This document shows, one piece after another, positions 2,226 to 30,516 of a stretch of 32,718 nt of DNA. The translations under genes were made by a program, and so were the position numbers. Origin of the DNA: a virus; IMG/VR virus record IMGVR_UViG_3300042469_000063, positions 1 to 32,718 of that record; one strand, written 5' to 3'. Under the pieces are notes generated by a model. The model saw only the letters and a program-made list of their open reading frames with translations. It was not told the origin of the DNA and did no database searches. Numbering within the stretch: the stretch's first letter is position 1; the number at the start of each line of letters is the position of its first letter.

Positions 2226-2519
2226 CTAATACATTTTAATTGTTATTTTACCAGTTTTTGCTACTGGTACTTCTTTTACTTTAATCTTCAAATCTACTTC
2301 AGTTAATTCAGTATCTAATTTTAATATAGAATTAAAAGCATTTTGTATTTCATTCCAATTTGCTTCATTTTCCATTTCATTTAATATATACAAATATTGT
2401 AACTTTTCTTGCAAGTCTTTAAAATAACTTATTAACATACTGTTATCTGAATTTAATACAAGCATTCTTGCAGCAGATATTTGTAATTCTTCTATGTGGT
2501 GTTTCATTGTATCTTTCAT
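2226..2519 (-). CDS. Hypothetical protein, 97 aa
   Basis: A mostly helical protein with an acidic middle (NEMENEANWNEIQNAF) and a basic C terminus (KVKEVPVAKTGKITIKMY). There are no membrane segments and no recognised motif. The start codon overlaps the stop of the methyltransferase gene as ATGA, so the two are probably translationally coupled. A methyltransferase partner role is conceivable from coupling alone, but no sequence feature supports it. An alternative ATG lies four codons downstream. Confidence 0.7.
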   Translation of the reverse strand: MKDTMKHHIEELQISAARMLVLNSDNSMLISYFKDLQEKLQYLYILNEMENEANWNEIQNAFNSILKLDTELTEVDLKIKVKEVPVAKTGKITIKMY

Positions 2520-3370
2520 TGTTTTATAAATTTAAATATATGTTCTATAATTGGTAAAGTCCAACCATCGCCAAGTAAGCTTCCTGCTTTTGCAGTTGTA
2601 AGAATATCGCAATAATTATCGGGAAAACCTTGTAACCTACACATTTCAATTTTATTTACTGTTCTTACTTTTTCGTTTTCTTTAATTAAAGTAATCATTC
2701 CAGTAGTTTCGTTTCTATGTAATAAATATTCTTGTTTTGCTTGTTCAGTTGCACCACTACCAGTATTTAAACAAGTATGTTTATCTGTATCAACACATCC
2801 ACTTGTTATAATATCTTTAAACATTATTCCTTTGTCTTTAGGTTGTGGAATATCAGTAATTATATCACCAAACATTCCATCTTGTCTTGTTCTTATATTA
2901 CTCCAATAATACCTATCCCTTAATTGTGCAGTAACAAGCGAACTATTAATTCTAACTGGATAAACTCCTAAAGCCCTACTCATAATTCCAACATCTAATT
3001 TTGCTGCACTCCCTACATTTTCTTGAAGAAATAATACTTTAGGATTTAATGATTTTATATGTTCTAATATTTCTACAAACACAAAAAATAAACTACTTCT
3101 ACTTCCATTAATTCCCGCTCTTTTACCAGCAGCAGATAAATCTTGACAGGGTGAACCTGATAAAACTAAATTAATACTTTTCCAATCAATATTCCATTCT
3201 TTCCATTTTGTTACATCTCCAACTTGAATAGTATCTGGAAAATGGTATTGTGTTAATTCTATTGCATAAGGTTTAATTTCACTTGAATAATATTTATTTA
3301 CTTTAATACCTACATTTTCTAATGCTTGTCTGCCAGTATTCATTCCGTTAAATAGTGATAATACATTCAT
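2516..3370 (-). CDS. C5-cytosine DNA methyltransferase, 284 aa
   Basis: All main motifs of m5C methyltransferases can be seen in order. The AdoMet-binding motif I is LFNGMNTGRQALE (residues 6-18). Motif IV is SGSPCQDLS with the catalytic cysteine C75. Motif VI is QENVGSA (E117). Motif VIII is QLRDR (149-153). Motif IX is IEMCRLQGFPDNY, and motif X is GSLLGDGWTLPIIEHIF near the C terminus. The target recognition region between VIII and IX is short. It transfers a methyl group to C5 of cytosine in DNA at a site I cannot deduce. No cognate restriction gene adjoins it. In this genome it most likely supplies 5-methylcytosine to the TET/JBP dioxygenase at 29445-30311, as in phage cytosine hypermodification pathways. 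The gene ends in ATGA overlap with the next one. Confidence 0.93.
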   Translation of the reverse strand: MNVLSLFNGMNTGRQALENVGIKVNKYYSSEIKPYAIELTQYHFPDTIQVGDVTKWKEWNIDWKSINLVLSGSPCQDLSAAGKRAGINGSRSSLFFVFVEILEHIKSLNPKVLFLQENVGSAAKLDVGIMSRALGVYPVRINSSLVTAQLRDRYYWSNIRTRQDGMFGDIITDIPQPKDKGIMFKDIITSGCVDTDKHTCLNTGSGATEQAKQEYLLHRNETTGMITLIKENEKVRTVNKIEMCRLQGFPDNYCDILTTAKAGSLLGDGWTLPIIEHIFKFIKQ

Positions 3371-8043: not shown

Positions 8044-10044
8044 TTAATTAGATATTGATAACATATTACCGATTATACTATCTGATGCATTTGCTAGTTG
8101 AATAGTAGCAAAAATAAAAAATTGATTTGCTGGATTTAAAGTAGTTGATGTCAAAGTCTGTCCACTTGCAATAATATCAGTTAACGTACTTGATGTAAAT
8201 GCAAATCCATATAAATTACCGCCATTCAAATTAAAATTTCTTTGCATTATATTAACTTGAGCAGTTGCAGTTCCACTATAAGTGGCAATAGTTGGCGCTC
8301 CAACAACAGTATTTGTTGTGTTAATTCTTAAACGTAAAGTATAAGTTCCTAACGCAGTTGTTTTATTTGCTCCAAATAACACTCTTATAATGTCAGTACT
8401 ACTAAAAGCAGTAGCTGGAATTGTTGCAGTAAATAAAGGAGGACTTTCACTAGTTGTTCCAGTGTGAACAGTTTGTGATGTTTGTATATTTTTATAAGGA
8501 GTATATGATAATACAGCTTGTTTTAAAGCCAAAGCATCAAATACAGCATTTTGACTTGGTGCAATAGTTGTAACTCCATCTGTAATACTATCAGCTACTT
8601 TTGCATCAATAGCAGTTTGTTGTGCAGTTGAAACTGGTTTGTTTGCATCAGAAGTATTATCAACGTTTCCTAATCCTACAAAAGTTTTATCTATTGTTTT
8701 ATTTTTCCATAAATCTGTTGAAGTTTCATAAACTAAACCTTGATTGTTTAATGGTGTATCTATAAATACATTGTGAAGTTCATCTAATTCCCAACCATTC
8801 ATTATTTTTACATATATCTTACCATTGTTTGCGTGAGCATATTCTACATAACCTATAATAACAATATGACCAGTTGAACCATTTGGTTTTATATTTGTAA
8901 TTCTACCAGCAGTTGTTGGACTTAAATATAAAACATCACCATCTGACCAAGTTTCACTTTGTAAACTTCCTGTTGTATTTATTCCTTCTAATTGACCTAC
9001 TGTAATAATAAATCCTTCTTGATTTGCAGCAATAGTTTCTGTTACAATACCTAAAGTATCAGCACTATTTAAATCATTATTTGCTTGTGCTAAATTAACT
9101 GCTAATCTTTGACCTTGAGCACCACTAACTTTTACAACTTGATATGCTGCTTTTGTTAATGTAGTATTTGGTGAAACTTTGTTTACTACTCTTGCTACTA
9201 AATCAACTCCATTTTTTAATATAACAGAACCACCTTTTAAAGTAGTTTCTGAACTACCTATTGTATCATTCCATCTTGTAACAGCAACTCCAGCAGTTCC
9301 AGTTGGTGTTGTGTCTAATTCTATTTGTCCAGCCTTTAATTCATATTCACCTAAATCAACATTAGCATTTGCACCAGTGTATGGTACTAAAGTGGAAACA
9401 TCTGGAATAGTTGGCTTATTTAATATTTGTGCTACTCCAGAAACGGCATTCCAATCGCTATTAACTTGTGCTGCTGGTATTGTAGGTTTATTTAATATTT
9501 CAGCAACTCCACTTGTTGCATCCCAATCAGCATTAACTTGTTCGAATTCTTGTAATTCCCAAACTGCTGCATCTTCTGTTGGGTCTGTACAAAGATAAAC
9601 ATCACCATTATCTAAAATCCATCTTGTGTTTTGAACAAAACCTTTTGTTACATCATCTGTTGCAGTTGGCACTTCAGTAAAATTATATGATACTTCACGA
9701 ATAACATTACCGCTACTATTCGTTATATAAAGTCTACCAGCTTCCCATTTATGCTCATATCCTAAACCACATATTTGAGCAATACCACCTAAACCACCAT
9801 TACCAGCATCAATAGTTCCTTTTTTAAGCATTGAACCATTATCTAATATAACAGCATCACCATTAGAAATACTTATATTTTCACCATCAGTAATATTACC
9901 TAATACTAAAGTTTCTGCTAATGTTTGTGTTCCACCACCACCACCAGTTATTTTATTAATATTAACTGTAATAAGATTATCAGTTACATTAATAGTAACT
10001 TCTTCAATGGTTTCATTTACGTTTATATCTATAATATCACTCAT
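8044..10044 (-). CDS. Tail fibre / receptor-binding protein, 666 aa
   Basis: A long, threonine-, asparagine- and glycine-rich protein typical of fibres. The first about 40 residues form beta strands ending in a run of five glycines. Residues 170-214 hold two copies of a module with SGVAxILNKPTIP, followed by PYTGANANVDLG, a motif common in phage fibres. Residues about 250-425 resemble a decoration/capsule-like fibre domain (VSGAQGQRLAVNLAQAN, SDGDVLYLSPTTAGRIT). About 440-510 contains KTFVGLGNVDNTSDANKPVSTAQQ-like collagen-tip spacer motifs. The last 150 residues are beta-rich and probably form the receptor-binding tip. Start overlaps the previous stop by one base. Confidence 0.82.
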   Translation of the reverse strand: MSDIIDINVNETIEEVTINVTDNLITVNINKITGGGGGTQTLAETLVLGNITDGENISISNGDAVILDNGSMLKKGTIDAGNGGLGGIAQICGLGYEHKWEAGRLYITNSSGNVIREVSYNFTEVPTATDDVTKGFVQNTRWILDNGDVYLCTDPTEDAAVWELQEFEQVNADWDATSGVAEILNKPTIPAAQVNSDWNAVSGVAQILNKPTIPDVSTLVPYTGANANVDLGEYELKAGQIELDTTPTGTAGVAVTRWNDTIGSSETTLKGGSVILKNGVDLVARVVNKVSPNTTLTKAAYQVVKVSGAQGQRLAVNLAQANNDLNSADTLGIVTETIAANQEGFIITVGQLEGINTTGSLQSETWSDGDVLYLSPTTAGRITNIKPNGSTGHIVIIGYVEYAHANNGKIYVKIMNGWELDELHNVFIDTPLNNQGLVYETSTDLWKNKTIDKTFVGLGNVDNTSDANKPVSTAQQTAIDAKVADSITDGVTTIAPSQNAVFDALALKQAVLSYTPYKNIQTSQTVHTGTTSESPPLFTATIPATAFSSTDIIRVLFGANKTTALGTYTLRLRINTTNTVVGAPTIATYSGTATAQVNIMQRNFNLNGGNLYGFAFTSSTLTDIIASGQTLTSTTLNPANQFFIFATIQLANASDSIIGNMLSISN
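9403..9537 (-). repeat. Two tandem copies of a 24-codon fibre module
   Basis: Residues 170-190 and 194-214 of the fibre protein share NxDWxAxSGVAxILNKPTIP with few changes. The DNA copies differ more than the protein, so the repeat is maintained by selection or is old. Such spacers repeat along fibre shafts. Confidence 0.8.
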
Positions 10045-10379
10045 TATCTTGTTACATCATTTTTAATTACAAAATTTCCACTTATGTAAGTCTTAACAGT
10101 ACCATCACCAAATTCTATTTCTATATCATATAAATAGTTATATGCACAAATATCAATTATCTGCTCATTTATCTTAAATAAACCATTTACATCATCAGTA
10201 ATTGTTATACCAGCATCGTCAACTGAAGTTAAAGATAAAGCTGGAATACCACCATATTCTTTTCTTAACTGCATTCTAATAATAGCATCTTCTAAACTAT
10301 ATGGTTCATCGTTTAATAGTATCTCAAAAGGTACTTCTTCAAATGTGTCTCCTTTAATGCTTTGAAAATTTAATCCCAT
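10044..10379 (-). CDS. Baseplate/fibre attachment protein, BppU-N-like, 111 aa
   Basis: A compact beta-rich protein: LNFQSIKGDTFEEVPFEILLNDEPYSLEDAIIRMQLRK, then ITITDDVNGLFKI and YNYLYDIEIEFGDGTVKTYISGNFVI. The order matches the immunoglobulin-like N-terminal domain of baseplate upper proteins, where it anchors receptor-binding proteins to the tail tip. Here the domain stands alone and immediately precedes the fibre gene, joined by TAATG. It is therefore probably the adaptor between tail tip and fibre. Confidence 0.65.
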   Translation of the reverse strand: MGLNFQSIKGDTFEEVPFEILLNDEPYSLEDAIIRMQLRKEYGGIPALSLTSVDDAGITITDDVNGLFKINEQIIDICAYNYLYDIEIEFGDGTVKTYISGNFVIKNDVTR

Positions 10380-10461
10380 CTTTAGTTTTGTTTTCTATTT
10401 TTTTTAAAAATATTTCTAACTTCTTAATGTTAGCTTGTTTTGGTTTATACTTATTTATCAT
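10354..10461 (-). CDS. Hypothetical basic peptide, 35 aa
   Basis: A 35-residue frame starting MINKYKPKQANIKKLEIF. Its ATG overlaps the TGA of the connector gene as ATGA, and it runs 26 bases into the next gene. The product is strongly basic. Coding is supported only by the overlap arrangement, which recurs throughout this genome. Confidence 0.45.
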   Translation of the reverse strand: MINKYKPKQANIKKLEIFLKKIENKTKDGIKFSKH

Positions 10462-10958
10462 AGTACCCATCCAGTAAAATAAGCATCTTTATCTGGATAC
10501 ATATCACCATTTGAATTAGAATTGTATTCAGGAAAATCTGCTTGATTAAAACTCATAAAATCTATAAACCTATTTGTGTAATGTTGTGCTATATCCCTTG
10601 CTTTTTCTACCAAAAAATCAATTTCATTCTTTTCAACATTTGTAGCGTTTTCTGATGTATGTTTGTAAATACCTTTTCCAGCGATTGTAATGGCTAAAAA
10701 CGGCAAAGCTTCTACCATAGACCAGTGTATTACCATAGGTTTAATATACTTGCTTAAAAGCGTTGTATATGGTTCTGTTAAGTCGTCATTTACAATATCA
10801 TCATTTAGTCTATTAAATAATTGTGTACCTAAATATGTTTGTATATGTGTGTCTTGTGCGATTTTTGTATACTGAATGAAACGGTCTACATCAATGTTGC
10901 CATTTAATGCTGTAAACCTAACTATATCATCCCTACTTATAAATAATGCCTGTGCCAT
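10458..10958 (-). CDS. Head-tail connector / head completion protein, 166 aa
   Basis: A helical protein with ISRDDIVRFTALNGNIDVDRFIQYTKIAQDTHIQTYLGTQLFNRL in the first 50 residues and YTTLLSKYIKPMVIHWSMVEALPFLAITIAGKGIYKH at about 64-100. This layout is that of the gp6/gp15-like head completion adaptors common in Bacteroidetes phages (DUF6712-like). It would form the ring below the portal. It lies three bases downstream of the portal gene, where connector genes normally are. Confidence 0.75.
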   Translation of the reverse strand: MAQALFISRDDIVRFTALNGNIDVDRFIQYTKIAQDTHIQTYLGTQLFNRLNDDIVNDDLTEPYTTLLSKYIKPMVIHWSMVEALPFLAITIAGKGIYKHTSENATNVEKNEIDFLVEKARDIAQHYTNRFIDFMSFNQADFPEYNSNSNGDMYPDKDAYFTGWVL

Positions 10959-27469: not shown

Positions 27470-28006
27470 TTAAAGTTTAATGTTTCTATTCATTTTATAT
27501 AATGCTTGTAATCTTTCTACAATTATTTGCCATTGTTCTGTACCTTCTGTTTCTAATAGTAATTGTTGTATGTTGTTTACTATGTTGTAATTGTTTCTTG
27601 GTTTTTGTAGGTTAGTAATTGTTTCTTGCAAGTTTTCTATTTCATTTGATAGTTTCATTACATCTATTTGTAAACTTTGTATGTATTCATCTTTTGACAT
27701 ATCTAATATATGTTCTGGTGATGCATAATTTAATCTTTGCATTATTTGTTTTCTAAATAGTTTTAGTGTTGGATTAAACTGCTCAAACATATCATAGTTC
27801 TTTAATGAATGTAATACTGTTGCGTGGTCTTTTCCTACTGAAGCACCAATAGATTTTAAAGACTTCTTTTTATCTATTTGCTTTAATACTTTATAATAGA
27901 TTGCTCTTGCTTCTATTGTTTCTCTTTTGCGTGTAACTTCATTTATATCTACACCTGTTATTTCTTGTATTGCTTTTTTTAATTGTAATGTTATTTGCGT
28001 TTCCAT
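27470..28006 (-). CDS. Protein with DnaA domain IV-like DNA-binding region, 178 aa
   Basis: Residues 31-72 match DnaA domain IV: ARAIYYKVLKQ, then KSLKSIGASVGKDHATVLHSLKNY, with the GxDHATVxH signature that reads DnaA boxes. Residues 108-142 form a coiled coil (LQIDVMKLSNEIENLQETITNLQ) and the rest is helical. There is no AAA domain, so it is not a full initiator. It could bind phage origin or host DnaA boxes, or act as a replication or transcription regulator. It overlaps the 75-residue gene by 16 bases and lies just after the hypermodification genes. Confidence 0.8.
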   Translation of the reverse strand: METQITLQLKKAIQEITGVDINEVTRKRETIEARAIYYKVLKQIDKKKSLKSIGASVGKDHATVLHSLKNYDMFEQFNPTLKLFRKQIMQRLNYASPEHILDMSKDEYIQSLQIDVMKLSNEIENLQETITNLQKPRNNYNIVNNIQQLLLETEGTEQWQIIVERLQALYKMNRNIKL

Positions 28007-28218
28007 CTAATTTTTATTTTTTGTTTTTTACTTTGTTTTATTAATTCTGTTAGTACATTAAATAATACTATTTCTAATGCTAAATGTATTCCCTGACATT
28101 CTTCGTATAATTCTTCAGCTTCATATTCTTTTAATATAAACCTTATTTGTTCAATAGTCATCCCTTGTTCTATTTCATATAAGGTAATATTATAGTGTTC
28201 TGTTGCTATATCATTCAT
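27991..28218 (-). CDS. Hypothetical protein, 75 aa
   Basis: N-terminal half acidic and helical (LYEIEQGMTIEQIRFILKEYEAEELYEECQGIH), C-terminal half hydrophobic helix then strongly basic tail (KQSKKQKIKIRWKRK). Its ATG shares one base with the TAA of the glycosyltransferase gene (TAATG). It may be an accessory protein for the modification genes or a DNA-binding regulator. Family not recognised. Confidence 0.62.
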   Translation of the reverse strand: MNDIATEHYNITLYEIEQGMTIEQIRFILKEYEAEELYEECQGIHLALEIVLFNVLTELIKQSKKQKIKIRWKRK

Positions 28219-28985
28219 TAAAACAATGTAGTTTGATTTGTATTAATGTTTGCCCAATGTATTTTTAAATCATTCCTTCCATCTGGTTTTATTATATGTT
28301 GGCATATATTATCACCCCATAATTCAACCATTTTTAAACACATATCTCTTTCAATACCATTAACATCATAAGCTATTTCTTTTAAGCCACCTTTGTTACT
28401 TCCATTAGGTGGTACACTAAAAGCGTAAAATGTATCCCTACCAGTTTTATTTCCTGATTTTATTGTTTTTATACAAAAGTCCCTATCTACTTTTAGTTTT
28501 AAATCTAAATTATATCTTAAACCCATTGTTAATTTATTATCAATATAAACTGCAGAGTCACAAAATGTATTTTCAATTAACCTTTTATTTGCTGACCAAG
28601 CATATTGCCTATATTCTAAAGCACCTACTGCAATATTATTTTCTTTAAAAAAATTTTTTGAATTATTAAGGCAAGTTTCAAAATCAATTCTATTTAATTT
28701 AGTACCTTCTCTTTCATAAAAATAACTAATATCATCATCTAAAACCCAATAATCTTTTACATTATCTTCTTCTGATTTTATTTTAATAAAGTTTCTTGCA
28801 TAAGCTAAACCTTTATTGTTTTCTGGTAATTGCAATATATTAAAATCATTATATTTATTTTTATATTGTTGGTATTCTTGTGGTTCTACAATTATATAAA
28901 GATTTTTATAATTACCTATTAAATCAACTGTTTTGCAGTTATCATACCTTCCTTTAGTTGTTACATATATAAATAATTCTTCCAT
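28218..28985 (-). CDS. TET-associated glycosyltransferase (TAGT), 255 aa
   Basis: A GT-A type fold with TTKGRYDNCKTVDLI at residues 9-23, IIVEPQEYQQY (31-41), NNKGLAYARNF (56-66) and the metal-binding YWVLDDDIS, D83-D85. Later parts include a helical acceptor region and IHWANINTN at the C terminus. This pattern corresponds to the glycosyltransferases found next to TET/JBP genes in phages. They transfer a sugar from a nucleotide-sugar donor to 5-hydroxymethyl pyrimidines in DNA. The dioxygenase lies two genes upstream, and the operon ends in the DnaA-like region. Sugar and donor cannot be deduced. Confidence 0.83.
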   Translation of the reverse strand: MEELFIYVTTKGRYDNCKTVDLIGNYKNLYIIVEPQEYQQYKNKYNDFNILQLPENNKGLAYARNFIKIKSEEDNVKDYWVLDDDISYFYEREGTKLNRIDFETCLNNSKNFFKENNIAVGALEYRQYAWSANKRLIENTFCDSAVYIDNKLTMGLRYNLDLKLKVDRDFCIKTIKSGNKTGRDTFYAFSVPPNGSNKGGLKEIAYDVNGIERDMCLKMVELWGDNICQHIIKPDGRNDLKIHWANINTNQTTLF

Positions 28986-28986
28986 A

Positions 28987-29442
28987 TTAAAATAATTTAG
29001 TTTGTTTAGTTATTTTTTCAATACATATCCTATCTGCTTGTTTCTTACTTAATAAAAAACCTTTTTCAATACCATTCTTAATACTTTTAAACCCATCGAA
29101 TAATGCTGGTTTATTAAATTCATAATACTGCTTTAATTGTTTTGTTGAAAATATATAAAACAAATCTTCATTACCTATAACATATAACCAACTTTGATTT
29201 TTATAAATACCTGACTCATATTTTGTATAACCATAATCACGTTCAACACTTATAAATAAATTACCAGTTTCAATAAACCTTTGGTCATTTTTTATTTCAA
29301 TACCTTGTCTATTTTCACCTTTTTCAATTTGTTCTTTTAATAAAGTATAATGGCTTAAGTTAATGTTTTTTTGTTTACTAAACCAATCCATAATAAATGA
29401 TTCAAATTCGTACCCTTTTTGTAGTTTAATTGTTGTTTCCAT
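28987..29442 (-). CDS. PD-(D/E)XK-like protein between dioxygenase and glycosyltransferase, 151 aa
   Basis: Around residues 41-53 it has KGENRQGIEIKND, that is E43-x5-E49-x-K51, the active-site pattern of the restriction-endonuclease fold. Upstream is the helix GYEFESFIMDWFS with E12 and E14. Downstream are GNLFISVERDY, SGIYKNQSWLYVIGNEDLFYIFSTKQL and a helical end. I recall similar phage proteins without a named function. It starts one base after the glycosyltransferase gene start side and two bases from the dioxygenase gene. It might be a nuclease that cuts unmodified or differently modified DNA, or a catalytically altered recognition module for the modification enzymes. Confidence 0.65.
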   Translation of the reverse strand: METTIKLQKGYEFESFIMDWFSKQKNINLSHYTLLKEQIEKGENRQGIEIKNDQRFIETGNLFISVERDYGYTKYESGIYKNQSWLYVIGNEDLFYIFSTKQLKQYYEFNKPALFDGFKSIKNGIEKGFLLSKKQADRICIEKITKQTKLF

Positions 29443-29444
29443 AT

Positions 29445-30311
29445 TTATAAATTTAAGTAACCTGTTTTATCCATTTTCATATTTAATAATTCTTCTGCTG
29501 GTTGTTTGCATTTATACATATATTCTCTATAATATAACACAAAACTAATGCGTAAGAAGTTTTCATCTGTATTTATAAAATCTGTATTTCCGTGCCATTG
29601 ATGCACATCAACAAAAAGCATATCAGTATTTTGTAAATCTATTGCTACTTTATATTGTGGTAAACAAAAATAACCACCAGTCCAATCGCCTTCACGATAT
29701 GCAATTAAATTACCAAAACCATCTGGATAATCACCAGCGTCTTGGTGTACTGCTGTTCTAAAATTTTTATTAACTGTTACAGTAGTAAATGAAGTATCAT
29801 CTATAATATAATTTTTATTTGTACCATCTGCTATTGCTTTTTGTTTTGCATAATGTGCTGGGCAAAGTTCTTTATATTTATTATCTACAAATTGTACAAA
29901 CGGAATGCCCTGTTTAAATTTATCAAAATAGTTTTTTGCAAATGCAGTTTTCCTACAATATTTAACCATAGCTGATGAGTCCATATAACCTACACTACCT
30001 GACTCTACTTTATTACCTACTGTTATATTACTAACTGAACCATCTTTACGAATACGTTTATGGCTGCTGCCAGAAGCATAACCTCTACTTTCAGTTACTT
30101 CTATACTATCTTTAAATGAATTTACACCCAACATTAATGTTTCTAATGGCATAGCATTTTTTCTAAATCTAAATAATAAATTACCATTTACATCATAACC
30201 ATCAGCATCTTCTGTAATTAATAAATCATAATTTTTTTCATTAAGGTATTTACCTTTTAATTTTTCTGTTTGTTCGTCAGTTAGTTGTTTTTTTAATTTA
30301 TAAGTTTCCAT
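29445..30311 (-). CDS. TET/JBP-family 2-oxoglutarate/Fe(II) dioxygenase, 288 aa
   Basis: The double-stranded beta-helix core runs from about residue 170 to 262. Iron ligands are H189 and D191 in FRTAVHQDAGD, and the distal H240 in VDVHQWHGNT. R254 in LRISFVLYYRE binds 2-oxoglutarate. Flanking motifs TTVTVNKNFRTA, GFGNLIAYREGDWTGGYFCLPQY and VAIDLQ match JBP1/JBP2-type enzymes closely. Phage TET/JBP enzymes oxidise the methyl group of 5-methylcytosine (or thymine) in DNA to hydroxymethyl. The methyltransferase at 2516-3370 is the likely source of substrate. The N-terminal 130 residues are a helical and strand-rich extension (MVKYCRKTAFAKNYF). It overlaps the 72-residue gene at 30298 by 14 bases. 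Confidence 0.92.
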   Translation of the reverse strand: METYKLKKQLTDEQTEKLKGKYLNEKNYDLLITEDADGYDVNGNLLFRFRKNAMPLETLMLGVNSFKDSIEVTESRGYASGSSHKRIRKDGSVSNITVGNKVESGSVGYMDSSAMVKYCRKTAFAKNYFDKFKQGIPFVQFVDNKYKELCPAHYAKQKAIADGTNKNYIIDDTSFTTVTVNKNFRTAVHQDAGDYPDGFGNLIAYREGDWTGGYFCLPQYKVAIDLQNTDMLFVDVHQWHGNTDFINTDENFLRISFVLYYREYMYKCKQPAEELLNMKMDKTGYLNL

Positions 30312-30516
30312 ATCTTTCTTTTAAAATAATTAATAATAAATCACTTAAATTTCCTTTTTGCTGGTATTCTAAACCAAATTCTTTTTTAATACCTTTTTTG
30401 CATAATGCTTTAAATTCTTTTAATTCTTCTGTACTAAAATATAACAATGTAGTTGTAATTTCAGTATTGTCTATTGGTGAATTATCTACACCCCAATCGT
30501 CTTCAAATAGTTTCAT
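30298..30516 (-). CDS. Hypothetical acidic protein of the dioxygenase operon, 72 aa
   Basis: Starts MKLFEDDWGVDNSPIDNTEITTTLLYFSTEELKEFKALCKKGIKKEFG and ends NLSDLLLIILKERYGNL. The N terminus is acidic with a DDWG motif, the rest helical and charged. It overlaps the dioxygenase gene by 14 bases, indicating coupled translation. A partner of the dioxygenase or a small regulator is possible. The DDWG and YFSTEELKEFK stretches look conserved-like, but I do not recognise the family. Confidence 0.65.
   Translation of the reverse strand: MKLFEDDWGVDNSPIDNTEITTTLLYFSTEELKEFKALCKKGIKKEFGLEYQQKGNLSDLLLIILKERYGNL

Follow-up and report, generated by a model that had tools for sequence, protein, structure and literature searches.

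The question raised by this locus is whether a phage that encodes a TET/JBP-type dioxygenase together with a glycosyltransferase carries glycosylated 5-hydroxymethylcytosine (5hmC), produced after replication and serving as an anti-restriction shield, as was proposed in a first-pass annotation. The stretch of DNA analyzed here (the window) represents the whole of the 32.7-kb IMG/VR virus record IMGVR_UViG_3300042469_000063, positions 1 to 32,718. Nearly all of its genes are located on the minus strand, and its gene content includes terminase and portal genes, tail-region genes, a sigma-like factor, and an exonuclease; no clamp gene was recognized in the window phage, the hosts of which are presumed to be marine Flavobacteria-like bacteria. 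The relevant features are collected in Table 1, among which the C5-methyltransferase, the nature of the middle cassette gene, and the QxxLF tail common to the cassette proteins are additions to the first-pass annotation. As detailed below, we propose, with moderate confidence, that the locus specifies a post-replicative base-hypermodification cassette which is coupled to the host replisome through clamp-tethered enzymes.

TABLE 1 Features of the hypermodification cassette and the associated methyltransferase gene in the window
Feature	Size (aa)	Coordinates	Strand	Basis of assignment
C5-cytosine DNA methyltransferase, possible 5mC donor, without clamp-type tail	284	2516..3370	-	PF00145, E = 7.9e-29
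TET-associated glycosyltransferase (TAGT), C-terminal QTTLF clamp-type tail	255	28218..28985	-	PF20691, PHROG 842
PD-(D/E)XK-like protein, C-terminal QTKLF, TET companion	151	28987..29442	-	E43, E49-x-K51; AF2 model; Foldseek
TET/JBP Fe(II)/2-oxoglutarate dioxygenase	288	29445..30311	-	PF12851, Fe(II)/2OG residues, TET2 profile match
Conserved ORF, possible TET partner	72	30298..30516	-	Overlaps TET start; strand-helix-helix prediction

The TET/JBP dioxygenase and its associated glycosyltransferase

The 288-residue protein matches the Pfam family Tet_JBP (PF12851) with an E value of 1e-22 and a score of 80.6 bits (gathering cutoff, 34.9 bits), the match covering positions 12 to 164 of the 164-position profile. 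Residues H189, D191, and H240, corresponding to the HxD...H Fe(II) triad, and R254, corresponding to the 2-oxoglutarate-binding arginine, are invariant among 26 homologues with at least 40% identity. Searches of the PDB with the single sequences of the TET, the glycosyltransferase, and a Melnitz TET returned no match; a profile of diverse phage TETs matched human TET2 in the PDB (E = 1.2e-5) with the H-x-D motif, the distal histidine, and the arginine in register. The identification of this minus-strand gene product as a genuine TET/JBP dioxygenase, as made in the first-pass annotation, is thus confirmed at the sequence level, and oxidation of a 5-methylpyrimidine is predicted.

The 255-residue protein, correctly placed by the first-pass annotation two genes downstream of TET with the 151-aa open reading frame (ORF) in between, matches the TAGT family (PF20691) with an E value of 4.1e-20 and 73 bits (gathering cutoff, 27.5 bits), as well as PHROG 842, described as 'beta-glucosyl-HMC-alpha-glucosyltransferase' (2.6e-27). 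Across 20 such glycosyltransferases, R13, the acidic metal-binding motif D83/D84, and D167 are conserved, and Q251 and F255 are invariant at identities down to 18%. A GT-A fold has been predicted for the TAGT-family member of phage T6 (PMC13216743), and by family the window TAGT would likewise be of the GT-A type. No other glycosyltransferase was recognized beside it. As dozens of independent contigs, along with one isolated phage, have the TET and glycosyltransferase genes side by side, their pairing is not a product of chance.

The 72-aa ORF precedes TET in most of the 42 loci that were inspected first. Its AF2 model (pLDDT 88.5) adopts, with high confidence, a strand-helix-helix arrangement for which no fold match was found in the PDB; it may be a ribbon-helix-helix protein. 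Some divergent members of this family start with a sequence reminiscent of an N-terminal clamp motif (QAELF, QGELF, QNELF, or QGFLF), while others begin with MKLF. The protein encoded directly downstream of the cassette, at positions 27470 to 28006 (minus strand), probably contains a coiled coil, and its DNA-binding domain resembles the C-terminal domain IV of DnaA (PF08299, 2.4e-9); its gene is kept in the same position in many loci, hinting at a possible link to replication.

Relatives of the cassette and the exchangeable slot downstream of TET

A scan of IMG/VR with the TET profile indicated that 426 stretches encode candidate TET relatives, of which 80 were retrieved. Among isolates, Nonlabens (Persicivirga) phage P12024L stands closest; it infects a member of the Flavobacteriaceae, and in its genome a 72-aa ORF, a TET (73% identical), a TAGT (51%; annotated in RefSeq as beta-glucosyl-HMC-alpha-glucosyltransferase), and an N6A/N4C-type methyltransferase are encoded in a row. 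The earlier statement that such cassettes are rarely documented in Bacteroidetes phages therefore holds for the literature searchable here but not for the cassette itself, which is common, as judged from these 426 loci and P12024L. Among the bacterial genomes scanned with the same profile, a single distant match was obtained, on a Winogradskyella metagenome-assembled (MAG) contig.

To describe the slot, defined as the gene which follows TET or TET plus the 151-aa gene, 96 loci comprising 1839 genes were surveyed. Its occupant is a TAGT in the window and many relatives, and elsewhere a P-loop protein similar to nucleotide kinases (by weak family matches only), an amino-acid:DNA transferase (ADDT; PF18724, 5e-18 in L019) with this P-loop kinase-like protein, a GT32-type enzyme plus a TAGT (L012), an FkbM methyltransferase (pelagiphage HTVC112P), or, in L032 (positions 8861 to 10739), a radical SAM/SPASM protein with an uncharacterized 309-aa protein, both bearing QxxLF tails, and no glycosyltransferase. 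Loci L097, L012, L087, and L090 harbor extra slot genes, being a second TAGT or a GT32-type glycosyltransferase, which suggests disaccharide modifications.

The tailoring type switches at least 11 times on the TET tree (83 labeled tips; a quick tree with weak deep branches). The clearest individual case is the comparison of the window with L002 (TET 99% identical), the two being 95.5% identical until the tailoring gene begins, unrelated across that gene (a glycosyltransferase/kinase swap), and about 87% identical from the stop codon onward. Tailoring genes in the slot downstream of TET are, therefore, exchanged as whole genes.

The 151-aa protein located between TET and TAGT is likely PD-(D/E)XK-like: E43 and E49-x-K51 are invariant among its homologues, and its AF2 model (pLDDT 84.5, with the last three residues disordered at below 50) retrieved I-Ssp6803I (probability 0.93, E = 0.067) and RecU as its top but weak Foldseek matches, none falling below E = 0.001. 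Given that the better of these is a homing endonuclease, and that the tree of TETs implies no fewer than 13 gains or losses of the gene, it may be argued that the protein acts as a free-standing homing-type nuclease which drives the exchange of tailoring genes and stands outside the modification machinery. We regard such a role as unlikely, since a roaming homing gene would be expected at other sites also, whereas relatives retrieved with the protein's own profile immediately follow TET in 50 of 52 loci and are hardly found elsewhere; the two exceptions are a contig that starts inside the 151-aa gene and a protein with only 32% identity. No description of a TET-tied PD-(D/E)XK-like companion was found in the literature searchable here.

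A shared C-terminal QxxLF tail

The TAGT and the 151-aa protein of the window end in NQTTLF and KQTKLF, respectively, and similar termini are present on unrelated proteins of the relatives, namely, the kinase-like proteins (QQSLF or QQTLF), the ADDT of L019 (EQIKLF), the radical SAM protein of L032 (LQSKLF), C5-methyltransferase-like proteins (QIELF), and the N6A/N4C-type methyltransferases of L008, L022, and P12024L (QTKLF or QQTLF). A C-terminal Q..[LIM]F was observed in 57 of 108 genes located within 1.4 kb downstream of TET, compared to 5 of 811 other genes and none of 43 TETs. Such gene counts are inflated by relatedness, unlike the count in which protein families are the units, where the tail is found in 6 of 33 slot families versus 2 of 424 elsewhere (Fisher p = 2e-6). 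By family, in the 96-locus set, it is carried by 67/69 glycosyltransferases, 19/19 kinase-like proteins, and 3/3 C5-methyltransferase-like proteins; the 151-aa family is mixed (QxxLF in 30 of 59, QxxLxL in a further 11, and neither in about 18), eight of nine ADDT proteins are tailless, and the HTVC112P cassette contains no tailed protein. In this larger set, 9 of the 10 tailed proteins outside the glycosyltransferase, kinase, and 151-aa families were DNA-modifying or slot proteins. QxxLF-ending DNA methyltransferases of the N6A/N4C type are encoded at L044:18039-18674, L008:1917-2546, and L022:9900-11093. That the tail is a general TAGT feature was rejected, since the TAGTs encoded by Aeromonas phage 65, by L172, and on the Winogradskyella contig end without it.

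The window/L002 swap described above resumes at the LF-stop codons, and a common 3' end of this kind could in principle represent a by-product of recombination, that is, a gene-exchange junction rather than a docking peptide. This explanation appears highly improbable. The codons of the tail vary synonymously (TTA, TTG, CTT, CTA, or CTG for leucine and CAA or CAG for glutamine, with the phenylalanine codons also varying), and the genes that come after the glycosyltransferase gene belong to about 16 different families, which argues that the peptide rather than the DNA is conserved; furthermore, the tail is present on the 151-aa protein and on methyltransferases encoded 3 to 7 kb away (L008 and L022).

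The sequence QLxLF, usually positioned at the C terminus, is the beta-clamp-binding motif of bacteria (PMC4549789), exemplified by the QLNLF of Escherichia coli UmuC (PMC3716654), and the UmuC proteins of Flavobacteria-like genomes bear Q[LIVM]NLF-type motifs. In the case of phage T4, alpha-glucosyltransferase is known to bind the clamp gp45 (Sommer 2004, confirmed in PMC13216743), although glucosylation levels are not set by this interaction (PMC13216743). Since the window TAGT and 151-aa protein each terminate in a Q-x-x-L-F peptide, the end of the latter being flexible in the model, both probably dock on the DnaN sliding clamp of the host, and the tails suggest that DNA is modified while it is being copied. 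In the literature searchable here, we found no account of unrelated tailoring enzymes that share clamp-type tails.

The C5-methyltransferase and the identity of the modified base

A C5-cytosine methyltransferase gene, lying away from the TET cassette, is also present in the window and makes a route from 5-methylcytosine (5mC) through 5hmC to glycosyl-5hmC possible in this phage. Based on gene content, 5mC made by this enzyme would be the likeliest TET substrate in the window phage. The gene is, however, optional, and sister phages differ at this position solely by its presence or absence: G032 possesses an 82%-identical copy, and in G014 and G006, whose TETs are 90 to 91% identical to that of the window, it is cleanly absent, with the flanking genes 2 bp apart. 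PF00145 methyltransferases are encoded by only 2 of 16 related contigs of at least 26 kb (14 being without), and none was detected in the two complete isolate genomes, those of P12024L and HTVC112P (TET 40% identical). Elsewhere in the family, host-made 5mC or thymine may serve as the substrate. GpC dinucleotides, whose depletion might have betrayed GpC methylation, are not depleted and were thus uninformative, the observed/expected ratios being 1.3 to 1.4 irrespective of the presence of the methyltransferase.

The sparse distribution of the methyltransferase lends weight to an alternative in which the TET of this clade oxidizes thymine in a JBP-like manner, giving rise to glycosyl-5-hydroxymethyluracil (a base-J analogue) or to amino-acid or phospho derivatives. 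We nonetheless consider a thymine route improbable for the clade, though not negligible. D194, which is conserved and lies three residues past the Fe-binding D191, corresponds in the alignment to TET2 Asn1387, a residue that contacts the cytosine amino group, and this alignment favors cytosine as the substrate. Characterized phage TETs reportedly act on 5mC (Burke and colleagues, 2021), and the required 5mC could be provided by host methyltransferases where the phage encodes none. A further point in support of thymine is that the ADDT-plus-kinase occupant of the slot resembles known thymidine hypermodification pathways (PMC9599517). With regard to the proposal of glycosylated 5hmC made after replication, the TET/TAGT cassette and the C5-methyltransferase speak for it, whereas the choice of 5hmC as the base is weakened by the sisters that lack the methyltransferase.

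Restriction-site avoidance and the question of a shield

One reading is that glycosylated 5hmC is made in bulk following replication and acts as a general anti-restriction shield. The co-occurrence of TET, TAGT, and C5-methyltransferase in the window fits this reading, as does the cytosine preference suggested by D194. However, the window contains no GATC (36 to 60 expected), no CATG (93 to 110 expected), and only 8 CTAG sites (67 expected), while AGCT is near expectation (93 versus 105). The absence of GATC and CATG and the near absence of CTAG extend to the sister phages; P12024L avoids other sites, with GGCC at 0/35 and CCGG at 2/37 (observed/expected). Restriction, therefore, still selects strongly on the window genome, and blanket, T4-like protection is contradicted. 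Together with the close sisters that lack the methyltransferase, this renders the shield put forward by the first-pass annotation, when taken in a strong form, a poor candidate, with a probability which we place below that of the thymine route. Because full protection would remove counter-selection against such sites, the modification would be partial, context limited, or recently acquired.

The 151-aa protein was considered as a nuclease responsible for the avoidance of GATC and CATG, and this was rejected, as sisters without the gene avoid the same sites and the 151-bearing L072 and L080 show no CATG avoidance.

Proposed model for clamp-tethered hypermodification

In the model that we favor, TET would act on phage DNA by hydroxylating a pyrimidine at its 5-methyl group, most likely that of 5mC generated by the phage's own C5-methyltransferase in the case of the window, and the TAGT would, as predicted from its family, add a sugar to the resulting hydroxymethyl group. 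The QxxLF-tailed TAGT and the 151-aa companion probably dock on host DnaN, such that newly synthesized DNA would be modified near the fork. Replacement of the slot gene by kinase-like, ADDT plus kinase, or radical SAM functions, most of which carry the tail, would alter the chemistry and leave delivery unchanged. The outcome, in view of the observed site avoidance, would be a partial or context-limited modification rather than a blanket one. In a broader formulation, the clamp peptide would be what admits enzymes to a modular slot after TET throughout this large lineage of small phages. Nonhomologous enzymes (glycosyltransferase, kinase-like, ADDT, radical SAM, and methyltransferases) and the PD-(D/E)XK-like protein would each carry it at their end, hypermodification would take place on the host clamp during replication, and whole-gene swaps would change the chemistry, perhaps with thymine as the substrate, giving DNA akin to base J, where a C5-methyltransferase is lacking. 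This formulation is in our estimation evenly poised between being right and wrong.

Clamp tethering would offer a small phage without a recognized clamp gene a simple way to modify its DNA in time, and would explain how the chemistry can change by gene exchange while delivery is kept. It also makes the replication coupling of phage DNA modification in general testable, P12024L being an isolated phage with a similar cassette that is open to direct tests, and phage genomes may be searched for the tail peptide as a way to recognize DNA-modifying enzymes that are still unknown.

Comparison with known systems

Judged by sequence, the window cassette is a genuine, if variant, representative of the phage TET/TAGT hypermodification systems. 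Clusters combining phage TETs with C5-methyltransferases were reportedly described by Burke et al. (PNAS, 2021; cited in PMC11347163), and, as in the window, TET is accompanied there by a glycosyltransferase and further tailoring genes; the window genome also encodes a C5-methyltransferase. In contrast to such clusters, most close relatives of the window lack a phage C5-methyltransferase, and the window clade possesses clamp-type tails on its tailoring enzymes and a PD-(D/E)XK-like companion. P12024L (gp25 to gp28; NC_018272) shares with the window the 72-aa ORF, TET, and a TAGT ending in QLEIF but is without the 151-aa gene and the C5-methyltransferase, its next gene encoding the N6A/N4C-type methyltransferase with a QQTLF tail.

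The T4 alpha-glucosyltransferase/gp45 pair resembles the proposed system in that a DNA-base glycosyltransferase binds a replication clamp, binding being a prediction in the case of the window. T4 has a clamp of its own, its glycosyltransferase is of the GT-B type, and its 5hmC arises at the nucleotide level, whereas the window phage would rely on a TAGT (GT-A by family), post-replicative oxidation, and probably host DnaN, with the tail being distributed over unrelated enzymes. The T6 enzyme belongs to the same Pfam family as the window TAGT but adds a second glucose to glucosyl-5hmC, while the window TAGT follows TET and is the sole glycosyltransferase recognized there. Finally, the beta-clamp-binding transposases (PMC4549789) parallel the window clade as unrelated enzymes with a convergent C-terminal QLxLF which contacts the host clamp, although in that instance the purpose is transposition and not base modification.
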